IMG/VR virus record: IMGVR_UViG_3300028196_001095 | Span: 1 to 27,788 of that record | Origin: a virus | Strand: one strand, 5' to 3' | DNA length: 27,788 bases | Shown: positions 1-18,003 of the stretch, piece by piece | Layout of the letters: every line of letters starts with the position of its first letter | Position numbering within the stretch: position 1 is the stretch's first letter | Made by a program: the position numbers and the translations under genes | The notes under the pieces: model-generated | The model's input: the letters and a program-made list of their open reading frames with translations, nothing else | What the model was told of the DNA's origin: nothing | The model's database searches: none

Positions 1-1
1 A

Positions 2-46
2 ACTGAGGCAAGAATTGAAGTAGAAACATACCTAAATTTGTCATAG
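2..46 (+). CDS. 3' end of an unidentified CDS (partial)
   Basis: An open frame enters the window from the left and ends at TAG 44-46, giving the C-terminal residues TEARIEVETYLNLS. The next gene starts 19 bases later on the same strand behind an AAGGA ribosome site, which fits the tight packing of this genome. The product cannot be identified from 14 residues. The alternative is that this is a chance open frame. Confidence 0.4.
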   Translation, partial: TEARIEVETYLNLS

Positions 47-65
47 CTTAACAAAAAGGATTGAT

Positions 66-233
66 ATGAGAATATCTACAAATACAAAGAAGTCTTTAGA
101 AAGTCAAATAGGTCATGATCCCGCAAAAGAAATATTTGATATACTGTTGGGGTTGATTCAAGAAGTTGAAACTTTAAAAAGAAATAAGGTTGATGTAACA
201 AAAATAATAAAGGGTGTTGACGATAATGTGTAA
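66..233 (+). CDS. Small hypothetical protein (55 aa)
   Basis: The ATG at 66 is preceded by AAGGA at 56-60, a good Shine-Dalgarno match. The frame runs 55 codons to TAA 231-233. The protein starts MRISTNTKKSLESQ and is charged, with a predicted helical middle (AKEIFDILLGLIQEVETLKRNK). There is no signal peptide, membrane segment or recognisable motif. It sits at the head of a run of small genes before SSB, a typical place for small phage early proteins. The promoter proposed for the next gene overlaps its 3' end. No function is assigned. Confidence 0.6.
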   Translation: MRISTNTKKSLESQIGHDPAKEIFDILLGLIQEVETLKRNKVDVTKIIKGVDDNV

Positions 234-245
234 TTATGGTATACT
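217..245 (+). promoter_or_regulatory. Sigma-70-like promoter upstream of the gene at 258
   Basis: TTGACG (217-222) and TATACT (240-245) are separated by exactly 17 bases. Both are close to the bacterial housekeeping consensus TTGACA/TATAAT. A start about 7 bases after the -10 would give a very short leader containing the GAGAGG ribosome site before ATG 258. The assignment rests on sequence match only. Confidence 0.55.
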
Positions 246-257
246 GAGAGGTAAACC

Positions 258-539
258 ATGAAAAGAAAAAAACTCGCTAGAATACTAAATGACTTTTACG
301 AAGATGCTCTTCCTACGGATCGCGCTTGGAATACATATTTAAACTTTCTAAAAATGTACAAAGGCGCAGACGAAGACACTGTAGAGTTTATGTATAGTAT
401 ATGTAACATGACTAAAAAAGATATGTTGAGATGGAGAACCAGACTAGCAGAGAAAGGTTTTGAATTAACCCCAAATGAAATAGAGCAGTATATACTTATT
501 GCTGCTCTTGTTATGCACTTAGTAGAGCCTGATAATTAA
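258..539 (+). CDS. Hypothetical protein (93 aa)
   Basis: The ATG at 258 follows GAGAGG at 247-252 and lies just downstream of a near-consensus promoter. The 93-residue product begins with a basic stretch (MKRKKLARILN). It is predicted mostly helical, with aromatic-rich segments (NTYLNFLKMYKG) and a hydrophobic C-terminal helix (IEQYILIAALVMHLVE) that could be amphipathic rather than membrane-spanning. I recognise no family. Its own promoter, small size and place ahead of SSB suggest an early-expressed phage protein; this is inference from position. Confidence 0.65.
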   Translation: MKRKKLARILNDFYEDALPTDRAWNTYLNFLKMYKGADEDTVEFMYSICNMTKKDMLRWRTRLAEKGFELTPNEIEQYILIAALVMHLVEPDN

Positions 540-548
540 AGGTGTAAT

Positions 549-704
549 ATGTCAGAAGAATCTAAAAAAATAGAAAAACTTGAGGCAGAACTAAAGGAAC
601 TCAGGCAAGCCGCCAAGGGGGTTTATCAGCTAATTCACTATATGGAAGATAACGATGGTCGTATCCGTAGACTAAAGAATGCTATTTTTTCTGAAAAAAA
701 GTAA
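549..704 (+). CDS. Small coiled-coil hypothetical protein (51 aa)
   Basis: The ATG at 549 lies nine bases after the previous stop, with only a weak ribosome site (AAAGGTG, 538-544). The frame reads 51 codons to TAA 702-704. The sequence is dominated by charged heptad-like residues (KKIEKLEAELKELRQ), a likely short coiled coil, followed by a basic tail (GRIRRLKN). It ends just before the SSB promoters. Function is unknown; a small dimerising or DNA-associated protein is possible but not shown. Confidence 0.6.
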   Translation: MSEESKKIEKLEAELKELRQAAKGVYQLIHYMEDNDGRIRRLKNAIFSEKK

Positions 705-712
705 ATTAAGTG

Positions 713-741
713 TTGAAAATTACCCGATGGTAATCTATAAT
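713..741 (+). promoter_or_regulatory. Consensus sigma-70-like promoter P1 for SSB
   Basis: TTGAAA (713-718), a 17-base spacer and a perfect TATAAT (736-741) lie in the gap between the 549-704 gene and SSB. This is the best housekeeping-type promoter match in the window and suggests transcription of SSB by host RNA polymerase. A second candidate lies 36 bases downstream. Confidence 0.65.
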
Positions 742-748
742 GATGTTG

Positions 749-778
749 TTGACAGCGTGTTGCTGTTTTGTGTTTAAT
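749..778 (+). promoter_or_regulatory. Possible second promoter P2 for SSB
   Basis: A perfect TTGACA (749-754) is followed after 18 bases by TTTAAT (773-778), a five-of-six match to the -10 consensus. If used, transcripts would start about five bases before the AGGAG ribosome site (786-790), leaving a minimal leader. It may work in tandem with P1 or be fortuitous. Confidence 0.4.
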
Positions 779-797
779 TAATTTTAGGAGTTTGATG

Positions 798-1127
798 ATG
801 GCGTTTAATAATGAGATTCGTTTGCAAGGCAACTTGACCAAAGATCCAGAGTACAAGAATATTTCCGAAAAGGATCTTGTTACTTTCCGTCTTGCCGTAA
901 ATGAGTCTATTGGTAAAGACAAAGAAGAAACTATCTATATGGATGTTGACGGCTGGGATAGTCACGCTAGATACGCTGAAAACGTAATGCTGGCAAAGGG
1001 TGATCGCGTCATCGTTACCGGAAGGCTGAAACAGCGGGAGTGGACAGATAAAAATGGCGCTAATCGCGTTTCTTACAGCGTTCTTCCTTCGACCTTCTCT
1101 AAGGTCGTAAAGCCTAACATGGCTTAA
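798..1127 (+). CDS. ssb: Single-stranded DNA-binding protein (OB-fold)
   Basis: This is an SSB-like protein that would coat single-stranded DNA during phage replication and recombination. The OB-fold signature is clear: an N-terminal strand (NEIRLQGNLTKDPE), FRLAVNES, then YMDVDGWDSHARYAENV, GDRVIVTGRL and a final strand (NRVSYSVLPS). Of two adjacent ATGs (795 and 798), 798 has the better spacing (7 bases) to AGGAG at 786-790. At 109 residues it is essentially the OB domain alone. It lacks the disordered region and acidic tip (DDIPF-type) by which bacterial SSB recruits partners, ending instead in KVVKPNMA. It stands alone with its own promoters, far from the recA/dnaB block, and is followed at once by structured element 1. 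Confidence 0.9.
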   Translation: MAFNNEIRLQGNLTKDPEYKNISEKDLVTFRLAVNESIGKDKEETIYMDVDGWDSHARYAENVMLAKGDRVIVTGRLKQREWTDKNGANRVSYSVLPSTFSKVVKPNMA

Positions 1128-1143
1128 CTCTAACTATACCATA

Positions 1144-1221
1144 GGGTTTGTCGGATCAAAATTAGGATTCAATTCATCATCCATCATCTGGATTCACAAT
1201 GTCATCCTAACCGACAAGCCC
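1144..1221 (+). ncRNA. Structured intergenic hairpin, element 1 (novel motif)
   Basis: The 109-base gap after SSB holds a long imperfect hairpin. The basal stem is GGGTTTGTCGG (1144-1154) with CCGACAAGCCC (1211-1221), 11 bp with one G-U. After a one-sided 7-nt bulge (1155-1161) comes a 7-bp stem, TTAGGAT/ATCCTAA (1162-1168/1204-1210). Next is a symmetric 10/10 internal loop, TCAATTCATC (1169-1178) against TCACAATGTC (1194-1203). A 5-bp stem, ATCCA/TGGAT (1179-1183/1189-1193), carries the pentaloop TCATC. Two copies of GKATTCANNNNRTCATMC lie at 1165-1182 and 1190-1207. The same architecture recurs at 5165-5244. It could be an RNA structure or a protein-binding site; the coding strand of any RNA is not certain. 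Confidence 0.6.
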
Positions 1222-1236
1222 TTTTGGGTCTTTATT
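1216..1236 (+). terminator. Possible weak terminator or alternative hairpin after element 1
   Basis: The 3' arm of element 1's basal stem (AAGCCC) can instead pair with GGGTCTT across a TTTT loop, followed by a T-rich stretch (TCTTTATT). The stem is short and imperfect. The layout, one arm shared between two exclusive pairings, resembles an attenuator, but the weak stem keeps confidence low. Confidence 0.3.
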
Positions 1237-1419
1237 ATGCAAAAAAATAGAATACTACTACAATTATCTAATATTGAAGATCAACTAAGCGTCCTTTCCG
1301 AAAAGTTGTATAATCCTCAACTTACAAGTTCGGAAGTCAGGGAACTTTCTAAAAAGAAAAAGAAACTAAAGAAAGATATGTCTAAATTAAAGAAAAGGTT
1401 AGACCACTCAAATGAGTAG
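1237..1419 (+). CDS. Small Lys-rich coiled-coil protein (60 aa)
   Basis: The ATG at 1237 begins a 60-residue frame ending at TAG 1417-1419. No convincing Shine-Dalgarno precedes it; the start lies immediately after element 1, so its translation may depend on that RNA structure. The sequence is a helical, heptad-like chain with a basic core (SKKKKKLKKDMSKLKKRL), suggesting a coiled coil that could bind nucleic acid. It overlaps the next gene by 8 bases. No known family is recognised. Confidence 0.55.
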   Translation: MQKNRILLQLSNIEDQLSVLSEKLYNPQLTSSEVRELSKKKKKLKKDMSKLKKRLDHSNE

Positions 1420-1618
1420 AAATAAACTTAAAAGAAAGCAAGATAAGCAGAAAAAGAAAGAGTCAGCTAAAGCTGTAAAACTTTCTAGAAGACGTAAGCA
1501 CCTTACAGAAAAAAAGAAGGTAGAAAAAGATACGTCCGATATGCAAAGAGAGATGCAGAGGTTGCAAAATAGACTTTCTGGTGTTACAATAAGAAAACCA
1601 AAAGAGAACGCTTCGTGA
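1412..1618 (+). CDS. Small highly basic protein (68 aa)
   Basis: The ATG at 1412 overlaps the end of the preceding gene and the frame stops at TGA 1616-1618. The product is extremely rich in Lys and Arg (SRNKLKRKQDKQKKKESAK at the start), with a central helix (DMQREMQRLQNRLSG) that could form a coiled coil. Charge alone suggests binding to nucleic acid or acidic proteins; I cannot name a family. It pairs with the similarly basic upstream gene, and the two may act together. The stop overlaps the GTG start of the next gene. Confidence 0.55.
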   Translation: MSRNKLKRKQDKQKKKESAKAVKLSRRRKHLTEKKKVEKDTSDMQREMQRLQNRLSGVTIRKPKENAS

Positions 1619-1923
1619 AAAGGTTTATAATACTATTGATTATGTCTTTGTTCCCGTTAGTATCTAGCGGTGAGCAATTATTAATGAGCAGACCTAGAAC
1701 TATAGAGGAAGTTGATCGTAGTAAATTCTATGCCTACAAAGATAGAATGAAGCAAAGAAGAGTATATGGATTAGAAGCTAGAAGAATTTATAATTCGGGA
1801 AAGGTTCATAAATACTGGACCGCTATGGTCTACCCGCGATACTATCCCAATTATTACAGGTATGTGCCGACCTACAGGCTGGAAAGAAGCGAGTACAAAT
1901 ACGAATATCAATACGGATACTAG
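1615..1923 (+). CDS. Secreted Tyr/Arg-rich small protein (102 aa)
   Basis: This starts at GTG 1615, overlapping the previous stop by four bases (GTGA). The N-terminus is a classic Sec signal peptide: MKR, a hydrophobic core (FIILLIMSLFPLV) and a small-residue cleavage region (SSGEQ, about residue 19). The mature part is basic, and its last 35 residues are strikingly rich in tyrosine (YPRYYPNYYRYVPTYR and then RSEYKYEYQYGY). Tyr-rich exported tails are seen in envelope or matrix proteins; the function here is unknown. It opens a run of exported or membrane products (to 4643) that looks like one accessory cassette. Confidence 0.65.
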   Translation: MKRFIILLIMSLFPLVSSGEQLLMSRPRTIEEVDRSKFYAYKDRMKQRRVYGLEARRIYNSGKVHKYWTAMVYPRYYPNYYRYVPTYRLERSEYKYEYQYGY

Positions 1924-1924
1924 G

Positions 1925-2413
1925 ATGCAAAATACAGGAACTTGGAACTCAGACGAAGCTATCTTTTACTTTCTTGTAGTCATATCTCCGATATGTCTAT
2001 ACTTTCTAGGTGCTTTTGTTAATATCGTGCTTAACGCTATGCCGGATACACCAGAGCCAGAAATTAGCTTTACCCAAGCAGTAGGAGAGGAAGAGGCTTG
2101 GCAGGCAGTAAAAGACAGATGCCTTGAAGATGCTGTCAACGGCGATTACAGAGCGCGCGATTGGCTAACTAAGAATTGTTATGGTTCAACCACTTTTTCG
2201 ACAGAGCCTAAGCCCAAATCTAAGCCTAAATCTAAGCCCAAATCTAATAAAGAAGAGGTCACAAGCCCTCAAGTTATCGACGAGGCGATTGTGGGTTTGG
2301 TAGGACTAGGCTATAAAAAACCAGAGGCAAAAAGGTTGATAAGCAAATTAACAGCTTCAAAAGTCTACAAAAACGCAGAAGTTTTACTCAGAGATACCAT
2401 CACTAATGTTTAA
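1925..2413 (+). CDS. Membrane-anchored protein with RuvA C-terminal-like domain (162 aa)
   Basis: I chose ATG 1925, just after the previous stop and near an AGG. An upstream in-frame ATG at 1862 would add 21 low-complexity residues inside the preceding gene. Near the N-terminus is one strong membrane helix (AIFYFLVVISPICLYFLGAFVNIV written in part), followed by a soluble region. A KPKS triple repeat (encoded at 2210-2245) acts as a linker. The C-terminal 45 residues (IDEAIVGLVGLGYKKPEAKR and onward) resemble the small helical RuvA domain III/UBA-like fold, a module that usually binds partner proteins. A membrane-tethered copy is unusual. The domain call is by eye. Confidence 0.6.
   Translation: MQNTGTWNSDEAIFYFLVVISPICLYFLGAFVNIVLNAMPDTPEPEISFTQAVGEEEAWQAVKDRCLEDAVNGDYRARDWLTKNCYGSTTFSTEPKPKSKPKSKPKSNKEEVTSPQVIDEAIVGLVGLGYKKPEAKRLISKLTASKVYKNAEVLLRDTITNV
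2210..2245 (+). repeat. Three 12-bp tandem repeats encoding KPKS linker
   Basis: Three units of AAGCCYAAATCT lie head to tail (2210-2221, 2222-2233, 2234-2245). They encode KPKS three times within the linker of the 1925-2413 protein. Such in-frame repeats change copy number easily by slippage and simply lengthen the linker. Confidence 0.8.
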
Positions 2414-2441
2414 ATGTGTATAAAATACTTTGGGGGAACGT

Positions 2442-3113
2442 ATGAATATTGTAGATTTAGATAAAGCATTTTCTGATAATATTAATTCTGTTAAGTATAC
2501 AGACTCTAAAAAGAGTTGGAAAGTGTCTGATAGGATTACTATAGATTGGAAAAATGTCTTACCTAAGCCCCCAGAGAACAATTCGGAAGAAACTCGCAAA
2601 GAATTGGAGTATCTTCAAAGTATAACAAAATCTCTTACTACAAGAGATAAAAATCTAATAGATTTAGTTGACAACGAACCTCTTGATCTTTATAATGATG
2701 TACTAAGAGAATACAACCTTCAAATGCCTAATTCCGCTTTTGACAAGGTTTGGAATATAACCCGCCCGATTATAATGAATTTAAAATATCAATATAATAG
2801 ACCAAGGCCAGTACAAATTGCAGAAAGACTGGGGTTTAAGGTAAATGTGGTAGAGACAAAGACCCACCAAACGCCAGCATACCCCTCTAGTCACACAACC
2901 TACGCTGCGATGGCGGCCTATCTTTTGTCAGATATGTATCCCAATTTGTCTTCTGATTTCTTTAGGAGGATTGGCGAGGCTGGACTGGCTAGATGTTTAC
3001 AGGGCGTACATTATCCGTCAGACAACGAGGCTGCTATGGTTATAAGTGGCGCTATTTGGCAAGACATAAGATATAAACTATTTCCAGATCTGGAACCATA
3101 CAGGAAGGGCTGA
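2442..3113 (+). CDS. PAP2 / vanadium-haloperoxidase superfamily phosphatase
   Basis: This is a soluble PAP2-superfamily enzyme, a family that dephosphorylates lipid phosphates, sugar phosphates or diphosphates, or binds vanadate as a haloperoxidase. All three signature motifs are present: K-X6-R-P at K115/R122-P123 (KYQYNRPRP), PSSH at 148-151, and R184-X5-H190-X3-D194 (ARCLQGVHYPSD). These supply the phosphate pocket, the acid His and the nucleophile His. The start is ATG 2442 behind GGGGGA at 2432-2437; a TTG at 2430 is less likely. At 223 residues I see no membrane helices, unlike the lipid phosphatases. It is followed one base later by the DUF1501 gene, suggesting co-expression. Substrate is unknown. 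Confidence 0.85.
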   Translation: MNIVDLDKAFSDNINSVKYTDSKKSWKVSDRITIDWKNVLPKPPENNSEETRKELEYLQSITKSLTTRDKNLIDLVDNEPLDLYNDVLREYNLQMPNSAFDKVWNITRPIIMNLKYQYNRPRPVQIAERLGFKVNVVETKTHQTPAYPSSHTTYAAMAAYLLSDMYPNLSSDFFRRIGEAGLARCLQGVHYPSDNEAAMVISGAIWQDIRYKLFPDLEPYRKG

Positions 3114-3114
3114 T

Positions 3115-4344
3115 ATGAAAAGACGAGACTTTGTTAAACTAGGAGCGGCGACTTTTGCTTATGGAAATATTACAGCGACTTACGCACAAGATGAGAAGAA
3201 GGACGATACAGCAGTATTATTCCTTTTTCTTGGCGGTGGCGCTAGTCATATTGAAACTTTTAATCCTGTACCATTTGCTCCTGCTGACCGGCGATCTGTA
3301 ACCGGAGCTATAAAAACCAACGTAGCAGGGGTCGAGCTAGGAGGTTTGTTTACAGAACTATCTAAACGTACAGATAAAATTGCAATCCCAAGAGCATTTG
3401 GTCACAGAGATCAGAACCATGCTTCCGCTGTTCATTGGATGGTTACAGGCGAGGCTAATTTCGGAGCGGGAACAAGCTCTAAGTGGCCTAGCTACGGGTC
3501 TATGATGAGTAAGCATCACGGAGTAAACACTGATGACGGGTTGCCCACATATGTCAAGCTAGGACAGTACGATCATAACGGTGCTGCATGGCTTGGTGGA
3601 AAGTATACAGGCTTTGATGCAACAAAAGAAGGCAGAAAAGACCTTAGACTGTTAGGGCAAAGCGAAGATTTCCACCGTAGATTACAGGCTTTAAATGTAA
3701 TTGATAATAATTTCTTAGCAAAAGACCAGCAAATGTCTAAAGATTGGCGAGATCTGCGGAATCAGTCGGTAGATATTATTCTTGGTGATGGCTCTAAGGC
3801 ATTTAGAGTAGAAAACGACAAAGATTATGATAAGTTCAAGGAGGCAACATTGGGGCAGGATGCCCTTACTGCAATCAGATTGCTGGAAGCTGGCTCTAAG
3901 TTTGTTTCATTAAGCTATGGTGGCTGGGATATGCATACAAACATAGGCCAATCTCTTGCAACAAAACAGGTAGAACTAGACCACTACCTTGCTAAAATCA
4001 TGGATACATTAGAGTCAAGAGGAATGTACGAACGGGTTATGCTTGTTGTAACCTCTGAGTTTGGTCGTACCCCAAAGGTGAATCAAAATCAAGGACGCGA
4101 CCATTTTGGGAAACTCGCTCCCCTTATGATTAGTTGCGGGAGTTATGAAATGGGAAGAACGATTGGGGCATCGACCCCTAACGCAGACGATTTTGAGAGC
4201 GGAAGATGTGGACCAGAAGATTTAGCGTGGACTATCTATAATCATCTTGACATGGTTAAATTAACACGGTATACTGCTACGGATGGCAGACCTCACAGTA
4301 TTGTAAAAGAAGACTCTAAGAACATTTTAAAGGATGTAGTATGA
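3115..4344 (+). CDS. DUF1501 family protein with Tat-type signal (alkaline-phosphatase-like)
   Basis: This 409-residue protein belongs to DUF1501, which I place with alkaline phosphatase/sulfatase-like proteins. These are usually encoded by Planctomycetota and relatives. The N-terminus is a twin-arginine signal (KRRDFVKLGAA) with likely cleavage after TYA24. Family motifs in order: GGGASHIETFNP (40-51), HWMVTG from H107, GWDMHTN (D272, H274), EFGRTP from E315, and GRDHF shortly after. The first motif has Glu47 and Asn50 where the version I remember has Asp (SHIDTFDPKP), so the metal site may differ. It lies one base after the PAP2 gene and overlaps the next secreted gene (ATGA). Its role in a phage is unknown; envelope modification or phosphate/sulfate release are guesses. 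Confidence 0.85.
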   Translation: MKRRDFVKLGAATFAYGNITATYAQDEKKDDTAVLFLFLGGGASHIETFNPVPFAPADRRSVTGAIKTNVAGVELGGLFTELSKRTDKIAIPRAFGHRDQNHASAVHWMVTGEANFGAGTSSKWPSYGSMMSKHHGVNTDDGLPTYVKLGQYDHNGAAWLGGKYTGFDATKEGRKDLRLLGQSEDFHRRLQALNVIDNNFLAKDQQMSKDWRDLRNQSVDIILGDGSKAFRVENDKDYDKFKEATLGQDALTAIRLLEAGSKFVSLSYGGWDMHTNIGQSLATKQVELDHYLAKIMDTLESRGMYERVMLVVTSEFGRTPKVNQNQGRDHFGKLAPLMISCGSYEMGRTIGASTPNADDFESGRCGPEDLAWTIYNHLDMVKLTRYTATDGRPHSIVKEDSKNILKDVV

Positions 4345-4643
4345 TTAAAAAATTAGCAGCAGCATTGGTTTTAACTTTCTGTTTTTGTAGTATGAGCGAT
4401 ACAGTTTCGGCTCAGTGGCCTTGGGGTTATAATTATCGCCAAAGGGTCGTTGGGTATCAACCTCATGTTGTATGGCTACCACAAGGAACTACCTTAAATA
4501 TAAACGGTGCGCACGTTGATCCATACAGGAGAACCGTTACGATAGGCGTTAATGCCCAATTTTACCATGTTCCACAGGTGCGAACTTTTAATTTCTATAA
4601 TGGAAATCAAAATTTTTACAACAATAATAACTGGAGAAGATAA
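4341..4643 (+). CDS. Small secreted protein, Asn/Tyr-rich (100 aa)
   Basis: The ATG at 4341 overlaps the DUF1501 stop (ATGA), implying translational coupling. The N-terminus is a clear Sec signal peptide (MIKKLAAALVLTFCFCSM) with an AxA-type site at VSA, leaving mature QWPWGYNYRQ. The mature core (VGYQPHVVWLPQGTTLNING, then DPYRRTVTIGVNAQF and VRTFNF) resembles short secreted proteins I associate with planctomycetes (pattern LPxGTxL...DRRYVRI...F). That match is from memory. The C-terminus is low-complexity (YNGNQNFYNNNNWRR). It probably acts outside the cytoplasm together with the DUF1501 protein. Confidence 0.65.
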   Translation: MIKKLAAALVLTFCFCSMSDTVSAQWPWGYNYRQRVVGYQPHVVWLPQGTTLNINGAHVDPYRRTVTIGVNAQFYHVPQVRTFNFYNGNQNFYNNNNWRR

Positions 4644-5158
4644 TGAAAGACTATATTAAACAGACAGATGAAACATTTTACCTAGACTCTTACGGCTCAG
4701 AGGAAGAAGTTACAGAAAGTAATTTCTACACTCCTTCTGAGGCAGAGTATGAAGACTGGGGTGAGGATTCCGAAGACTGGGATATTTCTATAGCAAAACC
4801 CGGACTTTGGGAAAATATTCGTAAGAAAAAAGAAAGAGAAGGTAAGAAATACAAACCAGCAAAAAGGGGAGACAAGGACCGTCCAGATCCAGAATCTTGG
4901 AAAAAAGCTCAGAGTTTAGAATATCAAGGCCGCAAGGTTACGCTCAACAAACCTTTTCTAACTCCAAAAGGTCCAAAGAAAAGGTCTGTTTATGTTAAAA
5001 ATGAGAAGGGTAATGTAGTAAAGGTGAACTTTGGCGACCCCAACATGGAGATCAAAAGAGATAATCCTAAAAACAGAAAGAGTTTTAGAGCTAGACACAA
5101 GTGCGAAACTCCCGGCCCTAAATGGAAAGCTAGATATTGGTCTTGCAAACAGTGGTAA
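4643..5158 (+). CDS. Conserved phage protein with C-terminal basic Cys/Trp domain (171 aa)
   Basis: ATG 4643 overlaps the previous stop (TAATG). The N-terminal 50 residues are acidic and Tyr/Trp-rich. A middle segment (LWENIRKKKEREGKKYKPAK then GDKDRPDPESWKKAQ) precedes a basic C-terminal domain of about 75 residues: VTLNKPFLTPKGPKK, VYVKNEKGNVVKVNFGDPNM, then ARHKCETPGPKWKARYWSCK. I recall this pairing of blocks in proteins of marine tailed phages, often near capsid genes, with no assigned activity. Possible roles are a virion or scaffold-associated protein. The two C-terminal cysteines could bind metal. Element 2 begins 7 bases after its stop. Confidence 0.65.
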   Translation: MKDYIKQTDETFYLDSYGSEEEVTESNFYTPSEAEYEDWGEDSEDWDISIAKPGLWENIRKKKEREGKKYKPAKRGDKDRPDPESWKKAQSLEYQGRKVTLNKPFLTPKGPKKRSVYVKNEKGNVVKVNFGDPNMEIKRDNPKNRKSFRARHKCETPGPKWKARYWSCKQW

Positions 5159-5164
5159 TATAAT

Positions 5165-5244
5165 CTATAATACAGTTAGCTGGATTCAGATTGTCATACA
5201 ATTCAATATTGTATTCAGCGCATCATCCAGCGCTGTATTATTAG
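5165..5244 (+). ncRNA. Structured intergenic hairpin, element 2 (permuted copy of element 1)
   Basis: In the 108-base gap before the glycosyltransferase, ATAATACAG (5167-5175) pairs with CTGTATTAT (5233-5241), extendable by CTA/TAG with one bulge. Inside a 3/1 loop lies GCTGGAT/ATCCAGC (5179-5185/5225-5231). Then comes a symmetric 10/10 internal loop, TCAGATTGTC (5186-5195) against TCAGCGCATC (5215-5224). The apical stem is ATACAAT/ATTGTAT (5196-5202/5208-5214) with pentaloop TCAAT. Motif copies lie at 5182-5199 and 5211-5228. The TGGAT/ATCCA helix is basal here but apical in element 1. A competing hairpin, CAGCGC/GCGCTG (5216-5221/5230-5235), could switch the fold. Confidence 0.6.
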
Positions 5245-5266
5245 ACTATAACTTAGGAAACATTGA

Positions 5267-6325
5267 ATGATAAATTTAATTGCGCCCATAAATACTTTGG
5301 GTTACGGGGTAGCGGGATACAATATACTTAAAGAATTATACAAGATAGATAACTCTGTATCCCTCTATCCCATTTCTCAGCCGCAAGATTTTGAAAGCGA
5401 AGAACTTTATGCGGCAATATCAAATCAAGAAAGATGTCTTATTGATAGACCCTGTGTTAAAATCTGGCATCAAAATGATTTGACCACCAGAGTTGGTAAT
5501 GGAAAGTTTATAGGCTTTCCAATCTTTGAGCTTACTCATTTTAACGCAAAGGAAATAACAAGCCTTCATCATTGTAATAAAATATTTGTTTGTTCTAAAT
5601 GGGCTAAACAAATTATCTTACAAAATACAAAATTTAAAGATGAAGATGTGCATGTTGTGCCTCTAGGTGTTGATAATAATATATTCTCACCATCAGCCGT
5701 TTCAGGAAGAAAGCCTACTGTATTTTTTAACTGCGGTAAATGGGAAAAAAGAAAAGGTCACGATATACTTCTAGAATGCTTCAACAATGCCTTTTCTGAG
5801 AATGATGATGTGGAACTATGGATGATGTGTGATAATCCATTTATAGGAGAGGGTAATAAAAATTGGCAAGACCTCTATAAAAATTCTAAGCTAGGAAGCA
5901 AAATAAGAATTATACCAAGGCAGAAAACTCATCAAGATGTAATGAGCATTATGCGGCAGGCTGATTGTGGTGTATTTCCCTCAAGGGCAGAAGGTTGGAA
6001 TCTTGAGTTACTAGAAATGATGTCTATGGGCAAACATGTTATTACAACTAATTACTCTGCACATACAGAATTTTGCACTCCGGTAAACTCAAGACTTATA
6101 AATATTAACAATTTAGAAACAGCTTTTGATGGCGTATTTTTTGATGGTCAGTTGGGGCTTTGGGCAGAAATTGCTCAAGATCAAAAGGATGTTACAATAG
6201 AATATATGAGAGATGTTCATACGTTAAAACAAGATGGACAACTTACTACAAACCAAAACGGTATAGATACCGGAAAACAATTTAGTTGGAAAAATTCAGC
6301 ACAGGAGTTGATAAATGGATTATGA
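5267..6325 (+). CDS. Glycosyltransferase, GT4-like (GT-B fold)
   Basis: This is a 352-residue retaining-type glycosyltransferase. The N-terminal domain has the short glycine-rich opening (NTLGYGVAGYNILKEL) typical of group 1 acceptor domains. The linker VVPLGVDNNIFSP (about 130-142) and the start of the donor domain (FNCGKWEKRKGHDILLECF) follow. The donor-binding signature is S239-R-A-E242-G-W-N with ELLEMMSMGKHVITTN after it, where E242 and the following Glu contact the nucleotide sugar. Possible targets are virion glycans, host surface sugars or modified DNA bases; the context does not decide. It starts at ATG 5267 right after element 2, with only AGGAAAC as ribosome site, and overlaps the protease gene by 11 bases. 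Confidence 0.85.
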   Translation: MINLIAPINTLGYGVAGYNILKELYKIDNSVSLYPISQPQDFESEELYAAISNQERCLIDRPCVKIWHQNDLTTRVGNGKFIGFPIFELTHFNAKEITSLHHCNKIFVCSKWAKQIILQNTKFKDEDVHVVPLGVDNNIFSPSAVSGRKPTVFFNCGKWEKRKGHDILLECFNNAFSENDDVELWMMCDNPFIGEGNKNWQDLYKNSKLGSKIRIIPRQKTHQDVMSIMRQADCGVFPSRAEGWNLELLEMMSMGKHVITTNYSAHTEFCTPVNSRLININNLETAFDGVFFDGQLGLWAEIAQDQKDVTIEYMRDVHTLKQDGQLTTNQNGIDTGKQFSWKNSAQELINGL

Positions 6326-7250
6326 TTTTGATGATGTAGATCTTACACCTAGACAAATATTAAATCTTTATAAGGGTGGTTTTGTAGGTAGCGTATGCGA
6401 TCCAGAAGACACGGCGGCTCTGCTGGCAGAACTTCCTACTCCTGTGTTTGGGGCTTCTGCTCATAGTCTATATGGATCTGGTAAAGGTAAGTTAAGCCTT
6501 CCTTTTAAAGCTTTATTAGATTTTGATTCCGGTTTTGGTCCATCAGAAAAGCAGACCACGGGGGATTGTGTTTCTCATTCCACTAGAAATGCTGTAGACA
6601 TTACTCGCGCGGTAGAAATTAAAAATGGAGATAGGGAGGATTTCGTTGCTCGCGGCGCAACGGAGGCTATATATCAGTCAAGAAGCCATATGGGACAGGG
6701 TATGACTTGTTCTGGTGCTGCTAGATATGTTCATCAGAACGGCGGGGTGTTAGTTAGAAAAGATTATGGAGATGTAGATCTATCTAAATATAATTCTAGC
6801 TTGGGAGCGAGAAAGAAAATACCAAATAATGTGTATAAAACAGAGGCTCAAAAGCACCAAGTTAAAACAATATCAAACATCAGAACTATAGAAGAGGCTA
6901 GAGATGCGCTGGCTAATGGCTATGCTCTTTCTGTATGCTCTGGGTACGGCTTTTCTTCTAGAAGGGATAGTAATGGTATCGCTAAAAGATCTAGCGGTTG
7001 GAATCACGCTATGTGTTGGATCGCTTGTGATGATACAAACGAAAGATTAAAAGAAACGCTATACCTAGTTCAAAATAGCTGGGGCAAATGGAATAGTGGT
7101 CCAAGGGTAAATGGGCAACCAGAAGGTAGCTTCTGGATTAGAGAGAAAGATGCTAGAGGCATGTTATCGGGCGGTGGCGGCTGGGTGTTCAGCGATGTAG
7201 ATGGGTTCCCAGCTAGAAAAATAGATTGGACAATCAATGAGGTATTTTGA
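6315..7250 (+). CDS. Papain-like (C1-type) cysteine peptidase
   Basis: This 311-residue protein has the catalytic landmarks of the papain fold. Gln80 and Cys85 lie in KQTTGDCVSHS (oxyanion Gln and nucleophile), His231 in GWNHAMCW, and Asn254 in LVQNSWGKW. About 60 residues precede the catalytic core, and I see no signal peptide, so it is either cytoplasmic, virion-borne, or released by a holin. It overlaps the upstream glycosyltransferase by 11 bases, and its TGA overlaps the next ATG (ATGA). It is followed by membrane proteins and a holin-like gene, so a lysis or envelope-penetration role is possible. Capsid maturation is an alternative. Catalysis is well supported; the substrate is unknown. 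Confidence 0.8.
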   Translation: MDYDFDDVDLTPRQILNLYKGGFVGSVCDPEDTAALLAELPTPVFGASAHSLYGSGKGKLSLPFKALLDFDSGFGPSEKQTTGDCVSHSTRNAVDITRAVEIKNGDREDFVARGATEAIYQSRSHMGQGMTCSGAARYVHQNGGVLVRKDYGDVDLSKYNSSLGARKKIPNNVYKTEAQKHQVKTISNIRTIEEARDALANGYALSVCSGYGFSSRRDSNGIAKRSSGWNHAMCWIACDDTNERLKETLYLVQNSWGKWNSGPRVNGQPEGSFWIREKDARGMLSGGGGWVFSDVDGFPARKIDWTINEVF

Positions 7251-7663
7251 TGAACACACAACAAAGAGCGATAATAGGGGTTGTAATTATAGCTGGTTTT
7301 ATTTTTTTTCAAAGTAAATCAGCAGAGTCGTTGACAACAAGCGATATACAGCCTATAATTGATGAGACGAGCGAGGCATTTGACGTAGCTCAGGCTAAGG
7401 TTTTTAATATTGTTCCTGATGATGACGACGAACCCTTGGGGCCAGATCCAGACGTTAATAAGTGTATATGCAAAGGTACTGGAAAGATAGTGCAGGGGGA
7501 TGGTCATACAACCGACTGTCCATATCACTCTGTGTCTAGTCCTGCTCCTGTGGTGAACGAGGTGGAGGTGGTAGAGATGGGGGCATACTGTCCTACAATA
7601 ACGGTAGAAAATCAAAAAAAAAATTACAGAAGACCTCTACTGTGGTTTCTACGGATGAGGTAA
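7250..7663 (+). CDS. Membrane protein with CxCxGxG zinc-like motif; probable 5' part of a frameshifted Trx fusion
   Basis: ATG 7250 overlaps the protease stop. Residues 7-20 are a membrane helix (RAIIGVVIIAGFIFFQ). An acidic stretch (DDDDEPLGPDPD) then leads to CICKGTGKIVQGDGHTTDCP, whose CxCxGxG core resembles DnaJ-type zinc motifs. In the zero frame the last 14 residues (NYRRPLLWFLRMR end) follow an A10 run at 7614-7623 and look unlike the rest. A -1 shift there joins the frame to the thioredoxin gene, giving a product of about 238 residues: anchor, cysteine motif, linker (QKTSTVVSTDEVKVKP) and thioredoxin. Either a short and a fused form are both made, or the A run is a sequence error. Confidence 0.65.
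   Translation: MNTQQRAIIGVVIIAGFIFFQSKSAESLTTSDIQPIIDETSEAFDVAQAKVFNIVPDDDDEPLGPDPDVNKCICKGTGKIVQGDGHTTDCPYHSVSSPAPVVNEVEVVEMGAYCPTITVENQKKNYRRPLLWFLRMR
7614..7650 (+). other. Candidate -1 frameshift site: A10 run plus hairpin
   Basis: Ten consecutive A residues (7614-7623) are read CAA AAA AAA AAT in the upstream frame, a permissive A-AAA-AAA slippery heptamer. Five bases further on, AGAAGACC (7628-7635) can pair with GGTTTCT (7644-7650) as a 7-bp stem with one bulged G and an 8-nt loop. Slippery run, spacer and stem-loop are the usual parts of programmed -1 shifting. Transcriptional slippage on A10 is an equal alternative. Confidence 0.45.
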
Positions 7664-7677
7664 AGGTAAAGCCAAGA

Positions 7678-7965
7678 ATGAAACAGGTTTTATTCTTTAC
7701 GGCAAGTTGGTGTGGCCCATGTCAGCAGTGGAAAAGAACAGAGTTGGCAAAATTTAAAACTAATCCTAAGTGGAAAATATCGGAAAAAGCAGACGCTATG
7801 ATAAGAATTGTGGATATTGACAAGCCGTCAAATAAGCAAATTATGTTTAGTAAGAAAACGAGGGTGGTTCCTGAGTTTGTTTTATTAGTAAACGGGAAAT
7901 ATGATTCTCATAAAACAGGTTTTCAGTCTGCCGAAACCATAGGAAAGATGTATAATAAGAAGTAG
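7678..7965 (+). CDS. Thioredoxin-like protein (possibly the C-terminal part of a fusion)
   Basis: This is a thioredoxin-fold protein with an intact CGPC active site (C12/C15 counted from ATG 7678) in the context FFTASWCGPCQQWK, and the cis-proline region VVPEFVLLVNGK later on. It would exchange disulfides or reduce target thiols. The chosen ATG 7678 has only weak ribosome sites (AAGG about 12 bases upstream). GTG 7642 is another possible start, and the frame stays open upstream through the A10 run into the preceding membrane gene. Expression may therefore come mainly from frameshifting, placing the domain at the membrane. A hairpin terminator follows the stop. A partner could be the class II RNR at 12184, but the tether argues for an envelope role. 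Confidence 0.8.
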   Translation: MKQVLFFTASWCGPCQQWKRTELAKFKTNPKWKISEKADAMIRIVDIDKPSNKQIMFSKKTRVVPEFVLLVNGKYDSHKTGFQSAETIGKMYNKK

Positions 7966-7972
7966 TGTTTAT

Positions 7973-7998
7973 ATCCTTCATCGGAAGGGTTTGTTTTT
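7973..7998 (+). terminator. Rho-independent terminator after the thioredoxin gene
   Basis: ATCCTTC (7973-7979) pairs with GAAGGGT (7984-7990), 7 bp with one T-G pair, across the tetraloop ATCG. It is followed by a T-rich tract (TTTGTTTTT). It lies 8 bases after the stop at 7965 and separates the 5267-7965 operon from the small membrane genes. Confidence 0.75.
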
Positions 7999-8021
7999 AG
8001 AAAAGGTAATTGGAGTAAGTT

Positions 8022-8198
8022 ATGGATAAGTTAAAATCGTTAGGTAAGTCTCGTAGATTCTGGGTTTCAGCAATCGGCCTTGCCGCAGTTGTAGCTTCCG
8101 ATCTTTTTGGAGTGGAATTGAATCAGGAGCAATTACTTGGTATCGTTACCATTGTTGCAGCTTGGGTTATTGGTGATACTGTACGAGAAACTAAATAG
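8022..8198 (+). CDS. Small two-helix membrane protein, holin-like (58 aa)
   Basis: ATG 8022 follows GGAG at 8012-8015. The 58-residue product has a basic N-terminus (DKLKSLGKSRR) and a first membrane helix (FWVSAIGLAAVVASDLF). A short amphipathic link (VELNQEQL) and a second hydrophobic helix (LGIVTIVAAWVIG) follow, ending in a charged tail (DTVRETK). Size, two helices and charged ends match small phage holins, and the layout KSRRFW...LNQEQLLGIV is one I recall from small phage membrane proteins. A pore role is inferred from shape and position near the peptidase, not shown by any diagnostic motif. It follows the terminator at 7973-7998. Confidence 0.65.
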   Translation: MDKLKSLGKSRRFWVSAIGLAAVVASDLFGVELNQEQLLGIVTIVAAWVIGDTVRETK

Positions 8199-8210
8199 TA
8201 GGAAAATAAA

Positions 8211-8516
8211 ATGGGTGAACTTAGTACGATTCAGTTAATTTTTATTGGTGTAGGAGTCGTTATTGCGGCTCCAGCTTTACTTGATTTATTGAAAGGGCTT
8301 TCTTTGCCCTCTATCAGTAGACCTAAAAAAGCTGTGAAACTATCTTCTACGGTTGTTCAGTGGGAGTCTCTTTACGATTCTTGCAAAGCCCTTTGTTTAA
8401 CAGAGGCTTGCAAGAAGTTAGACGAGGCATTCCCTCTGTTAGTAGAAAGAGATGAGAAATGCGAAAATCAAGACTCTCTTGAAACGGAGGATAAAATTGA
8501 AATCCTCAACGACTAG
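8211..8516 (+). CDS. Membrane protein with one N-terminal helix (101 aa)
   Basis: ATG 8211 lies 12 bases after the holin-like gene with AGGAAAA upstream. The N-terminal 30 residues contain one membrane helix (TIQLIFIGVGVVIAAPALLDLL). The rest is a soluble domain carrying three cysteines (SCKALCLTEACKKLDEAFPL) and an acidic tail. Its 3' end overlaps the start of the next gene by about 20 bases. No known family is recognised. In the context of consecutive single-helix proteins it may belong to a lysis or envelope group. Confidence 0.6.
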   Translation: MGELSTIQLIFIGVGVVIAAPALLDLLKGLSLPSISRPKKAVKLSSTVVQWESLYDSCKALCLTEACKKLDEAFPLLVERDEKCENQDSLETEDKIEILND

Positions 8517-8958
8517 AACCTGTATAGGTTTACTTATAGTTCTTATTGGTTTATTTTTGCCTCAAATTCAGGAACGGATTCCTGATTTGATACCCAAGCC
8601 CAGCGCTCCGGTTGTTGACATAAAAGAACCTACGCAGGAGATTAAAGAGAAAACCTTAAAGGTGGCAGAGAAAGTTACCGATGATAAAGATAGGTTGGAC
8701 CTTTGTATCTTTAATAAAGAGTTTTCAGAAAGAATATTGACATACAATACAGATGTTCAACAGGTAAACGATGTATATACAGAGGCCGCAAAGATTTTGT
8801 ATAAAGATTCTTTAAAAGGTAAGTACGATGGGTATAGTGAAGGCGTTATATCTCTAGTCTCAGGGGTTACTGGAAGCGAAAACCACCAGCTAACACAGTC
8901 AGAAAAGCGTCAGCTTGGTGAAGTGTTTTCTGGTCTTGCTTGGAATTTATCTCAATGA
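8497..8958 (+). CDS. Membrane-anchored hypothetical protein, TTG start (153 aa)
   Basis: I place the start at TTG 8497, which has a strong GGAGG (8486-8490) six bases upstream and puts a signal-anchor (RTCIGLLIVLIGLFLPQI) right at the N-terminus. An in-frame ATG at 8452 would overlap the previous gene by 65 bases with no good ribosome site. After the helix comes a proline-rich spacer (DLIPKPSAPVVDIKEPTQ), a charged helical stretch (EIKEKTLKVAEKVTDDKDR) and a helical domain ending GLAWNLSQ. The layout of anchor, spacer and coiled region resembles spanin-like or virion-assembly proteins, but no family match is clear. Confidence 0.6.
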   Translation: MKSSTTRTCIGLLIVLIGLFLPQIQERIPDLIPKPSAPVVDIKEPTQEIKEKTLKVAEKVTDDKDRLDLCIFNKEFSERILTYNTDVQQVNDVYTEAAKILYKDSLKGKYDGYSEGVISLVSGVTGSENHQLTQSEKRQLGEVFSGLAWNLSQ

Positions 8959-9344
8959 AAGTAAGGGTAACATTTATAGTATTAAAAAAGGACAACAACA
9001 TAAGCCCCGCAAGCGATCAGCATTTAAAAGTTTATCTTGATGATGATTATTTGTTTCCTTTTAAATATATATCCACAAAGAATGAGTATGAAACCTTAAA
9101 AGAAATTTCAGAACACTATCTTAGTGTAGATTTTGATTGGATGAAAAAAGATCTTTTTAGTTTTGAGGTCTTGAATAATGAAGAATGTGAGGTAATATAT
9201 ATAGCTTGTATTCCCCAGATAGGCGATTCAGAAAAAACAGGATCTTTTTACACTCTGCCCGAACTCTCCGATATAGGAATAGAACTAAAGAAAAATTATG
9301 AAAGAGCAATCTTTAAAAGAGGAAAATCCCCAGTCGGATGGTGA
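8955..9344 (+). CDS. Hypothetical protein, possibly degenerate Nudix-like (129 aa)
   Basis: ATG 8955 overlaps the preceding stop (ATGA), the coupling seen repeatedly here; a TTG at 8940 is a less likely start. The strand order (MKVRVTFIVLKK, a helix YETLKEISEHYLSVDF, then CEVIYIACIP and a late FYTLPELSDIGI) loosely recalls a Nudix fold. The Nudix box (GX5EX7REUXEEXGU) is absent, so any hydrolase activity is doubtful. The last 47 bases overlap the next gene. Treat it as an unknown cytoplasmic protein. Confidence 0.6.
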   Translation: MKVRVTFIVLKKDNNISPASDQHLKVYLDDDYLFPFKYISTKNEYETLKEISEHYLSVDFDWMKKDLFSFEVLNNEECEVIYIACIPQIGDSEKTGSFYTLPELSDIGIELKKNYERAIFKRGKSPVGW

Positions 9345-9645
9345 GACTATATCTCAGCTATTGATATACACAGAAGAAGATGGAAACATATACTTTTCAT
9401 GTGATTGGACAGATTCAGAAGATGCAGTCACAAGCATGGGGTCTATGTTGTATAGACTATCCGAAGGGCAATTAGTATCTGAAATTATGGATAATTTAAA
9501 GTCCCAATGTGTACTAGAAGAAAGAGTTGAAGACTATGAAAAAATATCTACACTATATAATAGTTTAAAGATATTGAAAAAATCAGTTAGCGAAATATCA
9601 GAAGATACCGTAGTCGTCAACCCTATAGATGCAACTACCTTTTAA
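9298..9645 (+). CDS. Hypothetical acidic protein (115 aa)
   Basis: The frame from ATG 9298 overlaps the preceding gene by 47 bases, and a weak purine-rich site (AAAGAAAAA) precedes it. The 115-residue product is acidic. It has a probable strand region (SQLLIYTEEDGNIYFSCDW), then helices (SMGSMLYRLSEGQLVSEIM and YEKISTLYNSLKILKKSV). Similar short proteins with EDG(N/D)...W followed by helices occur in phage genomes as uncharacterised genes. I assign no function. It ends 16 bases before the next gene. Confidence 0.6.
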   Translation: MKEQSLKEENPQSDGETISQLLIYTEEDGNIYFSCDWTDSEDAVTSMGSMLYRLSEGQLVSEIMDNLKSQCVLEERVEDYEKISTLYNSLKILKKSVSEISEDTVVVNPIDATTF

Positions 9646-9661
9646 TCACGGTGAGACTATT

Positions 9662-10291
9662 ATGCCAGTTCACAAAAAAATAGCTTGGGAAAGCTGGAAT
9701 GCTAAAGTTGACGTAGTATCTTCTATTGAGCCAGCGCAAGCAGGAGAAGAGGAAGATTATGAAATTGACCAAATGTCTCAATTTCCAATAGATCCCAGCT
9801 TTATTCTAGAGCAACAAAGAATCTTATACACCCCGATAGGTCCGTATCCAGAAGAGTCAATGCTGAAACCTTCCGATAGGTGGGATTGCTGGATGGGATA
9901 TACAAACTTCCCAGTTACTAACAAGATTTCTTCTGTTTTAAATAAGGATATAGATGGCATAGAAGCTTTGAAAATATTAGGTAAATATTCTTTTTTCATT
10001 GGTGTTGCTAGAATGTTTGATATATCGGACGTTAGGAAAGCTATTGAAGAAAGGTTATGTAACTATACGGAGAGTGAAATACTGTCAGACGAAGAAACTC
10101 AAGAGACGGTAGATTTAGTTAAGAGTCAACTTAAAAACAATAAATATTGGTCTATTTTAGTTTCTCCGCAGGGGAAAGTTGACTATATAGTTTCTGATTT
10201 TATGGATGAGATTTATTTAGATGGTCTAAATAGATTATTGGAATTGAAAAAACAGGCTGGCGGAATAATACTTAGGAGCAAAAGTGGATAA
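9662..10291 (+). CDS. Hypothetical protein (209 aa)
   Basis: I prefer ATG 9662, which follows GGTGAG (9651-9656). The in-frame ATG at 9629 lies inside the previous gene without a ribosome site. The 209-residue product opens MPVHKKIAWESWNAK, has an acidic segment around residues 30-40 (EEEDYEID), a Trp/Pro-rich patch (PSDRWDCWMGYTNFPVT) and several helices (IEALKILGKYSFFIGVARMF). No domain is recognised. Its end overlaps the GTG start of the sigma factor by 8 bases, so the two may be co-regulated. Confidence 0.6.
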   Translation: MPVHKKIAWESWNAKVDVVSSIEPAQAGEEEDYEIDQMSQFPIDPSFILEQQRILYTPIGPYPEESMLKPSDRWDCWMGYTNFPVTNKISSVLNKDIDGIEALKILGKYSFFIGVARMFDISDVRKAIEERLCNYTESEILSDEETQETVDLVKSQLKNNKYWSILVSPQGKVDYIVSDFMDEIYLDGLNRLLELKKQAGGIILRSKSG

Positions 10292-10787
10292 AGATATTGA
10301 AAATTACTTGAAGGATAAAAACATTCTAAACATTATGAATAAGGTTTCTTTTCCTTATAAGAACAATATAGACTGTGACGAAATTGATTCGATTAAAATG
10401 GATATATTATGGAATTGTATCAACAAATACGATTCAGATAGAGGATCTAAATTTACATCTTATTTGTATCAACAGCTTTCTTTTGCTTTTCGCAGCAGGG
10501 TAAAGAAAAAAAGAAGAGAATACTCTAGTGAGTTTATAGAGGATGGAACGTCTACGCGAGGAAGAATGCGTCTTCAAAGTTTAAGGAAAACAAGCTCTGA
10601 CATGAATTTTTATGATATTTTAGAAGGTTTGCCTGACGATGTTTCGGACATAATAAAACAAAGATTCATGGAAAATATGACGATGAAAGAAATAGGAAGT
10701 GCTAATGGCTACAGTAGAGAGACGGCTAGAAGAAAATTGTTAAAAGCTGTAAAAATATGCAAAGAAAAAAACAAGATTCAAATATGA
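10284..10787 (+). CDS. Sigma-70 family RNA polymerase sigma factor (small, phage-type)
   Basis: The start is GTG 10284, five bases after AGGAG (10274-10278). Residues 32-75 match sigma region 2, with the hallmark NKYDSDRGSKFTSYLYQQL that binds the core enzyme and the -10 element. A basic link (RVKKKRREY) leads to region 4 at about 113-158: a helix (LPDDVSDIIKQRFM), then the helix-turn-helix MTMKEIGSANGYSRETARR. At 167 residues it contains only the minimal pair of domains, like ECF or T4 gp55-type factors. It would redirect host RNA polymerase to phage, probably late, promoters. The virion gene at 10868 lies immediately downstream, behind candidate repeat sites. Confidence 0.85.
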   Translation: MDKDIENYLKDKNILNIMNKVSFPYKNNIDCDEIDSIKMDILWNCINKYDSDRGSKFTSYLYQQLSFAFRSRVKKKRREYSSEFIEDGTSTRGRMRLQSLRKTSSDMNFYDILEGLPDDVSDIIKQRFMENMTMKEIGSANGYSRETARRKLLKAVKICKEKNKIQI

Positions 10788-10793
10788 TTTGTG

Positions 10794-10820
10794 TATATAG
10801 AGTTGGACTTGGATATATAG
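10794..10820 (+). promoter_or_regulatory. TATATAG direct repeats, candidate late promoter region
   Basis: The 80-base gap between the sigma factor and the virion gene has two near-identical boxes, TATATAGAGT (10794-10803) and TATATAGTGT (10814-10823), exactly 20 bases apart. A TTGGAC lies between them (10804-10809). The A/T-rich TATA-type box recalls phage late promoters read by phage sigma factors. No housekeeping consensus is evident here, in contrast to the SSB and RNR promoters. Confidence 0.35.
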
Positions 10821-10867
10821 TGTAGGATACATGGAAAAAAAATACATTTATAACATGGAGAATGTTA

Positions 10868-11530
10868 ATGCCTGTTTCTACACAAGGTGATTATCTTAAA
10901 AACACTACTGGTGGGGCTTATGTGGCCCAAAAAGAAGGCGGTACTGTACTTGGCAATGTCACTACTGGTACTGTAATTACTAAGTCCTTGTCTCTTTTAG
11001 ATAATGGCGCACCCTATACTGCTACTCTTCCTTCGGAAAGAGCTAACGGTTTAGTTGCTAACCAAAAAGTTCTATCCGGTGGAACTTTCGCTTATGACGC
11101 TGCTGGAAAATATGTTATTCGTACAATTAGTGATACACTCTCTGGTGTTGCTAGCACAACGATGCTTATTCCTTCTAGAGCAAAAGAAGCTACTCCACCC
11201 ATTGCCAAGTTTAATCACGACTTTGGTGCGGATACAACTAGTTTGATGAGAAAGAATCGTTTTTCTCGCATTGGCTACTTAAATAACGGAAATAAGCTCA
11301 CTTCAAGAAGGTTGTGGCTTAATGCTGCTGGAACGGCTGCTGCTGCTCCTTCTACTTTAACCGGTGGGAATATGTGGGGTATTGCTGCAAGTGCAACCTC
11401 GGATAATCCAGACAATGCCGCTAATCCAACCAGAGCTATTCCGGGTGAACTTGTAATGAAGGTTGACTTCGTTACTCTTACTGTCGCCGGAGGTGACTTC
11501 TTCGACTACAAACCAATTACTGGTATGTAG
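10868..11530 (+). CDS. Probable virion structural protein (capsid or decoration type)
   Basis: ATG 10868 is seven bases from GGAG (10857-10860); the ATG at 10862 is too close to it. The 220-residue product is rich in Ala, Thr, Gly, Ser and Asn. It has no cysteine, no membrane segment and repeated beta-type segments (GGTVLGNVTTGTVITKSLSL, YVIRTISDTLSGVASTTM), as is common for capsid or decoration proteins. Codon use leans to GCT, ACT and GGT more than its neighbours, consistent with high expression. It is a single-gene unit bounded by its own upstream region and a strong terminator. I cannot match it to a specific fold, so the virion role is inferred from composition and context. Confidence 0.6.
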   Translation: MPVSTQGDYLKNTTGGAYVAQKEGGTVLGNVTTGTVITKSLSLLDNGAPYTATLPSERANGLVANQKVLSGGTFAYDAAGKYVIRTISDTLSGVASTTMLIPSRAKEATPPIAKFNHDFGADTTSLMRKNRFSRIGYLNNGNKLTSRRLWLNAAGTAAAAPSTLTGGNMWGIAASATSDNPDNAANPTRAIPGELVMKVDFVTLTVAGGDFFDYKPITGM

Positions 11531-11551
11531 AGAATTTTTTGGCTTTAACCG

Positions 11552-11583
11552 AGGGGGCGGGGTGTGTCTCGCCCCCTTTTTTT
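11552..11583 (+). terminator. Strong rho-independent terminator
   Basis: AGGGGGCG (11552-11559) pairs with CGCCCCCT (11570-11577), an 8-bp GC-rich stem over a 10-nt loop, followed by a run of T to 11583. It closes the virion protein gene at 10868-11530 and is the strongest terminator in the window. It separates this abundant transcript from the coiled-coil membrane gene at 11603. Confidence 0.9.
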
Positions 11584-11602
11584 ATACATAAGGAAAGTCA
11601 TC

Positions 11603-11944
11603 ATGAGCGAGGCATGGAGTTTAACTAGAGATATAGCAGAAGTCGTAGGAATGTTTCTTGTTCCCGTCATGGCTTGGGTTATGTATACTATATTAAGTCA
11701 TGGAAAACAAATCATAATTTTGGAGGAAAAAGTGAACGACTCCTTAAATAGAAGAATGGCTGGTATTGAAGAGAAGGTTGTGAGTATGGAAAGTAAAATA
11801 GAAAACAAGATAGACGGTCTTGAAAAAAATATTGTAGAGTGTAAAATAGCTATAAACAACAACGCCAGCAATCTCAATAGTATTGGTAATTCTATAACCA
11901 ATAAGTTTGATACCTTGATAGATAAAATTGAGGATATTAGATGA
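11603..11944 (+). CDS. Membrane-anchored coiled-coil protein (113 aa)
   Basis: The start ATG 11603 follows AGGAAAG (11591-11597). An upstream in-frame start at 11564 lies in the terminator and is rejected. The N-terminus has one membrane helix (VVGMFLVPVMAWVMYTIL). The remaining 75 residues form a long heptad-patterned coiled coil (KVNDSLNRRMAGIEEKVVSM, then IENKIDGLEKNIVECK and onward). One anchor plus a coiled rod could be a holin-associated, spanin-like or replisome-tethering protein; nothing distinguishes these. Its stop overlaps the next ATG (ATGA). Confidence 0.65.
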   Translation: MSEAWSLTRDIAEVVGMFLVPVMAWVMYTILSHGKQIIILEEKVNDSLNRRMAGIEEKVVSMESKIENKIDGLEKNIVECKIAINNNASNLNSIGNSITNKFDTLIDKIEDIR

Positions 11945-12111
11945 GCATAAAGTCTGTAATCATCAGAGAAATAATGGAAGAGTTTGGCGTTACCGAAGAA
12001 ATGGTAGACAAAGTTAAATCTGTTATTGATAATATTGATGTACAGAAATTTGATAACAGGACTATTATTAGTATAAAGACTAAAAATATATCAGTAATTA
12101 TAGATAAATGA
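11941..12111 (+). CDS. Small hypothetical protein (56 aa)
   Basis: ATG 11941 overlaps the preceding stop (ATGA), and the frame ends at TGA 12109-12111. The 56-residue product has an amphipathic helix (VIIREIMEEFGVTEEMVDKV) and an Ile-rich strand-like tail (TIISIKTKNISVIIDK). Translational coupling suggests it works with the membrane coiled-coil protein upstream. It has no family resemblance that I know. The RNR promoter begins three bases after its stop. Confidence 0.55.
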   Translation: MSIKSVIIREIMEEFGVTEEMVDKVKSVIDNIDVQKFDNRTIISIKTKNISVIIDK

Positions 12112-12113
12112 AA

Positions 12114-12142: not shown

Positions 12143-12183
12143 ATACTATCTACTAAACACTTTACAGGACGAGGAATAAATAA

Positions 12184-16354: not shown

Positions 16355-16367
16355 TCAAAGAGTTTAA

Positions 16368-17027: not shown

Positions 17028-17048
17028 CGTGTAATGTTAGCGTCTATC

Positions 17049-18002: not shown

Positions 18003-18003
18003 A

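Follow-up and report, generated by a model that had tools for sequence, protein, structure and literature searches.

The window analysed here, the whole 27,788-nucleotide stretch of the IMG/VR virus record IMGVR_UViG_3300028196_001095 (positions 1 to 27,788), encodes on its + strand a 409-aa protein of the DUF1501 family (3115–4344, ATG start). The reading that we favour, and to which we give about an even chance, is that marine tailed phages infecting Pirellulaceae-like hosts use this Tat-exported, planctomycete-derived protein to remodel the envelope or surface of the cell. A broader proposal, which we hold somewhat more tentatively, is that a lineage of uncultured, large marine phages infecting Pirellulaceae-type planctomycetes has a dedicated envelope-remodelling system, built on repeated capture of DUF1501, on arrays in which as many as three of these exported enzymes are maintained, and on a cassette that pairs DUF1501 with a planctomycete-type secreted protein and is swapped among the phages.

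No activity or characterisation of DUF1501 proteins is known (PMC4452313). They are preferentially found in compartmentalised PVC species according to a passage of PMC4960237 that cites Kamneva 2012, and in some proteobacteria they occur together with DUF1800 and chitin synthase genes (PMC5122149). As for phages, a 61-aa protein of a Pseudomonas phage with a weak CDD hit to DUF1501 has been reported (PMC5418858). In the literature searched, we found no description of a phage DUF1501 as an auxiliary or host-takeover gene and no dedicated work on phages of planctomycetes.

The DUF1501 gene, its signal and its phage context

The initial annotation had recognised a DUF1501 protein with a twin-arginine signal in a phage setting, and all three points held. 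In an HMM search, residues 32–405 matched positions 2–387 of the 390 positions of PF07394 (E 6.3e-56), covering most of the profile, and the score of 190.6 bits lies far above the cutoff of 27; a PDB sequence search with P0001 returned no match. By sequence, the N-terminus (MKRRDFVKLGAATFAYGNITATYA) carries a Tat-type signal, with RRDF at residues 3–6 and an A-x-A-like end, and cleavage is likely to occur after TYA, at residue 24. The motif RRx[FL][LVIM] was present in 78 of the 81 viral homologues with a clear start and the remaining three had RRKF, which brings the RR motif to 81/81. Phage DUF1501 is under strong purifying selection, with dN values of about 0.05–0.12 in the more distant contig pairs, where dS was at least 1.3 or saturated. 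Given this conservation across contigs, with dN far below dS, a chance open reading frame can be excluded.

The signal also bears on the idea that the protein might be a virion- or tail-associated enzyme working on the cell surface at entry. Many phage tails bear polysaccharide hydrolases, which would fit such a part, but a virion protein assembled in the cytoplasm would not need the Tat motif that every viral homologue with a clear start carries. Moreover, the neighbouring genes are replication genes, glycosyltransferases and a PAP2 phosphatase and not recognised tail genes, and we regard this explanation as very improbable.

The window further encodes UvsX, a DnaB-type helicase, a primase, a dNMP kinase, an exonuclease, a PhoH-like protein, a B12-type ribonucleotide reductase, a sigma-70-like factor and a Pol III alpha-type polymerase. 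Upstream of the DUF1501 gene lies that of a PAP2-superfamily phosphatase (2430–3113, +; PF01569, E 7.8e-12), which often adjoins phage DUF1501 and in which no signal peptide was seen. Downstream follow a 100-aa secreted partner that we call SEC (4341–4643, +), a protein with a phrog_7595 C-terminal domain (4643–5158, +; E 3.7e-11), which is a frequent neighbour, and a GT4-type glycosyltransferase (5267–6325, +; PF13692, E 6.6e-16), also frequent near the gene in relatives. Proteins of the phrog_7595 type, the window's own and its homologues, differ greatly in length and reach 653 aa; their C-terminus is conserved (RKSFRARHNCDNPGPKWKARYWSC), and the modules ahead of it are variable.

The same DUF1501 was carried by about 40 other viral contigs (39 in count) from different metagenomes, at 51–100% identity, the longest of them reaching 126 kb, with phage genes on both sides. 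That the locus is an assembly chimera of host and phage DNA has a negligible probability: nothing was found in favour of a chimera, and this recurrence rules it out. The best match of the protein likewise lay within DUF1501. A wider profile search matched 374 viral contigs, so that a reading of the gene as a one-off phage oddity is not supported. A tblastn search had no hit at 1e-3 among 50,697 named phage records, and in the collections searched phage DUF1501 thus appears as a feature of uncultured phages.

Predicted fold and candidate site

The AF2 model of the protein (pLDDT 85, pTM 0.84) predicts an alkaline-phosphatase/sulfatase fold, with matches to nucleotide pyrophosphatases (NPPs), sulfatases and lipoteichoic acid synthase (LtaS). 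For this predicted model, VIA Z was 20.2–20.5 to NPPs over 245–255 residues (rmsd about 3.4 Å) and about 20 to choline sulfatase over some 250 residues, while Foldseek matched it to LtaP with an E of 5.5e-7. Sequence identity to NPPs, S1 sulfatases and LtaS is about 9–15%, and the shared features are the fold and D/H positions in the expected order. An uncultured Caudovirales phage protein (UniProt A0A6J5M742) is also named DUF1501 and matches the fold (E 1.3e-9), but it is 489 aa long and only 12% identical over the structural alignment.

Over 82 DUF1501 sequences, residues G41, G42, H102, E233, D272, H274, D289, F316–R318 and R328–H330 were invariant, and H45, E47 and H97 were at least 90% conserved. 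The invariant H102 stands nine residues ahead of the conserved TG, which we take to be the spacing of the sulfatase Cys and hence the nucleophile position; it would thus put a His where the known enzymes have Cys or Thr. The S1 sulfatase signature C/S-x-P/A-S/A-R was not found in NHASAVHWMVTG (residues 101–112). In profile alignments, which are short and weak by themselves, EFGRT falls on the DHG segment of sulfatases, so that, in the DHG/DNG metal pair, E315 would stand for the Asp and F316 for the His/Asn. In this sequence register, the canonical nucleophile and metal pair are not all present, and the altered positions of H102 and E315/F316 suggest a site that is related to, but different from, that of the alkaline-phosphatase superfamily.

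The initial annotation had also proposed that substitutions at E47 and N50 of the first motif could alter metal binding; that both of them do so is not supported. Both are present and invariant among close relatives of the window's protein. In 26 planctomycete DUF1501 sequences drawn without a motif filter, position 47 was D in 14 and E in 10, which makes E47 an ordinary family variant and rules it out as an unusual residue. Position 50 was D in 24 of the 26, and therefore only N50 departs from the family, as a clade-specific change.

Origin of the gene and likely host

Placing the viral proteins in a phylogeny with bacterial DUF1501, a check suggested at the outset, showed them nested among cellular ones at four separate points, with Planctomycetota and Verrucomicrobiota as cellular neighbours. 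The careful tree comprised 63 proteins (27 viral and 36 cellular) and needed four virus/cell label changes (bootstrap 5–95% range 4–4), where the cellular set had been partly chosen by sequence pattern and is thereby biased towards relatives of the main viral clade. A larger quick tree gave five changes, at least four of them forced by supported branches, and a single viral clade was rejected with an earlier sequence set (p 5.4e-5). Genes of two marine Pirellulaceae/Planctomycetaceae MAGs share 83% identity with one phage copy (L273), and for a second phage group (L047 copy 2) the identity is 76–78%, whereas the window's DUF1501 shares 30–37% identity with the nearest bacterial ones found. Phages thus appear to have captured DUF1501 from planctomycete bacteria at least four times. 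The deeper clades may reflect transfer in the reverse direction or unsampled bacterial lineages. Like the DUF1501 proteins of Planctomycetota and Verrucomicrobiota, that of the window has a full-length domain, a Tat-type signal and the motifs GG.SH.ET, H-x8-TG, GWD.H, EFGRT and GRDH; it differs in having N50 for a near-universal D and in being phage-borne and cassette-exchanged.

SEC carries a Sec-type signal peptide and a domain (YQPHVVWLPQGTTLN..VDPYRRTVT..TFN) that turns up again in Pirellulaceae, both in secretins and in secreted proteins. With the A3/A8 profile, the domain was detected in 39/60 Pirellulaceae genomes, in 5/99 across Planctomycetota and in 0/101 of Chloroflexota. The two genomes closest to the L273 DUF1501 gave the best matches to an improved profile (E 1.8e-16 and 7e-13); it matched none of 12 Verrucomicrobiota, Kiritimatiellota, Poribacteria, Phycisphaera, Gemmata-type and related genomes in the panel, and one Planctomycetaceae MAG was likewise without a match. 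A short domain with the consensus LPQG...VVSPDRRYVR...TFN, noted for SEC and for L122, L124 and L338, is common to secretins and small secreted proteins of Pirellulaceae. Its phage members gave no Pfam match, and it may be an undescribed planctomycete domain; the structure model of SEC (pLDDT 49) was too poor for use.

Taken together, the tree placement, the 83% identical copy and the SEC domain support Pirellulaceae-like hosts, which narrows the PVC-type host of the initial annotation. For the CRISPR check that it proposed, window positions 1–20000 were compared with 241 Pirellulaceae genomes; no spacer-like match stood out, and the hits were mainly PhoH and DUF1501 motifs with a few isolated short matches.

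Counted against a planctomycete host were two MAGs, one of SAR202 and one of Lokiarchaeota, whose bins each include two phage contigs. The SAR202 MAG OSU_TB57 (L047, L333–L337; contigs C13 and C7) holds contigs of 152 kb and 64 kb with a phage replication cluster and DUF1501 arrays. Because its 152-kb contig is identical over a gene run to an IMG/VR virus contig, this MAG appears to contain phage genomes. Its own DUF1501, located in a DUF1800 operon, shares only 24–32% identity with the compared set, and that over short stretches; SAR202 was set aside as host. In the Lokiarchaeota MAG Hel_238_bin13, the two contigs (L042 and L043) are phage contigs of the lineage, with all ORFs 40–100% identical to phage proteins. 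Their presence in an Asgard archaeal MAG is probably due to binning errors, and Lokiarchaeota were rejected as a source.

As another possibility, the phage protein might insert into, or compete with, DUF1501/PSCyt2-PSD1 envelope modules of the host by binding and not by catalysis. Such mimicry would suit the 23, 26 and at least 49 DUF1501 matches in three sampled planctomycete genomes, the DUF1549/DUF1553 gene near the closest bacterial relative and the resemblance of SEC to part of the secretins and other secreted proteins of planctomycetes. However, the catalytic-looking residues are invariant, for which there is no obvious need in binding alone, and no DUF1549/DUF1553 gene was found on the phage loci searched, in contrast to the pairing of bacterial DUF1501s; we consider mimicry rather unlikely.

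An exchanged cassette and the possible role of DUF1501

Within the window, a segment comprising DUF1501 and most of SEC (3114–4610) is 94.4% identical in nucleotides to the 72-kb phage L003, whose replication proteins are only 34–56% identical to those of the window. The match begins at the DUF1501 start codon and stops inside the 100-aa SEC gene, and the flanking sequences are not co-linear: in a co-linear alignment identity drops to about one third on both sides. In L003 the cassette lies behind the exonuclease gene, whereas in the window it stands between the PAP2 and phrog_7595-type genes. The DUF1501–SEC cassette is thus exchanged between phages.

Related phages carry one to three DUF1501 genes between the exonuclease and the PAP2/Pol III genes. 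We surveyed this slot on contigs found through the exonuclease, 50 of which had at least 2.5 kb downstream. DUF1501 occupied it on 31/50, often as two genes and at most as three, and where DUF1501 was lacking the slot mostly held a GT2-family glycosyltransferase. In the window, the slot runs from a PD-(D/E)XK-type exonuclease (24821–25933, +; phrog_69, PDDEXK in a relative) to a DNA polymerase III alpha-type gene (PHP and DNA_pol3_alpha; 26822–27787, +) that runs off the window's end, and is filled by an exostosin/GT47-like glycosyltransferase (25933–26847, +; PF03016, E 5.1e-9). In L174 and L176–L179, DUF1501 directly follows the ribonucleotide reductase gene, in a slot other than that between exonuclease and Pol III. 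Phage DUF1501 resembles the glycosyltransferases that serve phages as auxiliary or host-takeover genes in its slot in sister phages, its variable content and its exchange between phages. Since sister phages fill the slot with glycosyltransferases, the purpose of DUF1501 may be related to theirs, namely remodelling of the cell surface.

The slot also helps in judging whether DUF1501 could be an auxiliary metabolic gene, encoding an exported phosphatase, phosphodiesterase or sulfatase whose release of phosphate or sulfate from extracellular organic esters feeds phage synthesis in poor waters. The predicted alkaline-phosphatase-superfamily fold, the PhoH-like gene in the window and the adjoining PAP2 phosphatase would agree with such scavenging. 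It is harder to reconcile with the absence of the canonical nucleophile and of one metal ligand, and with a slot shared by glycosyltransferases and not by transporters, and we think it rather unlikely.

On the basis of Tat export, fold and the slot shared with glycosyltransferases, we infer that hydrolytic remodelling of the envelope or surface glycans is the most likely role, in keeping with the envelope-directed or auxiliary function that had been put forward as plausible. The protein would be made inside the infected cell, fold in the cytoplasm, probably with metal, and be exported by the host Tat system. Outside the inner membrane it would hydrolyse envelope lipids or surface glycans that bear phosphate or sulfate, and the remodelled cell surface might, for example, block superinfection or prepare lysis and release.

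DUF1501 genes are heavily multiplied in some planctomycetes, one of the genomes sampled having at least 49 matches, yet are without known function. That phages repeatedly take the gene and keep it under strong purifying selection indicates that it is valuable during infection, a benefit apparently gained without the DUF1549/DUF1553 genes that accompany DUF1501 in the host. The biochemistry of DUF1501 should be easier to approach through a few phage proteins than through the dozens of paralogues of the host family, and the cassette with the SEC domain provides a sequence marker for planctomycete phages. For the biology of these hosts, our findings suggest that infection of planctomycetes depends on remodelling something beyond the cell membrane.
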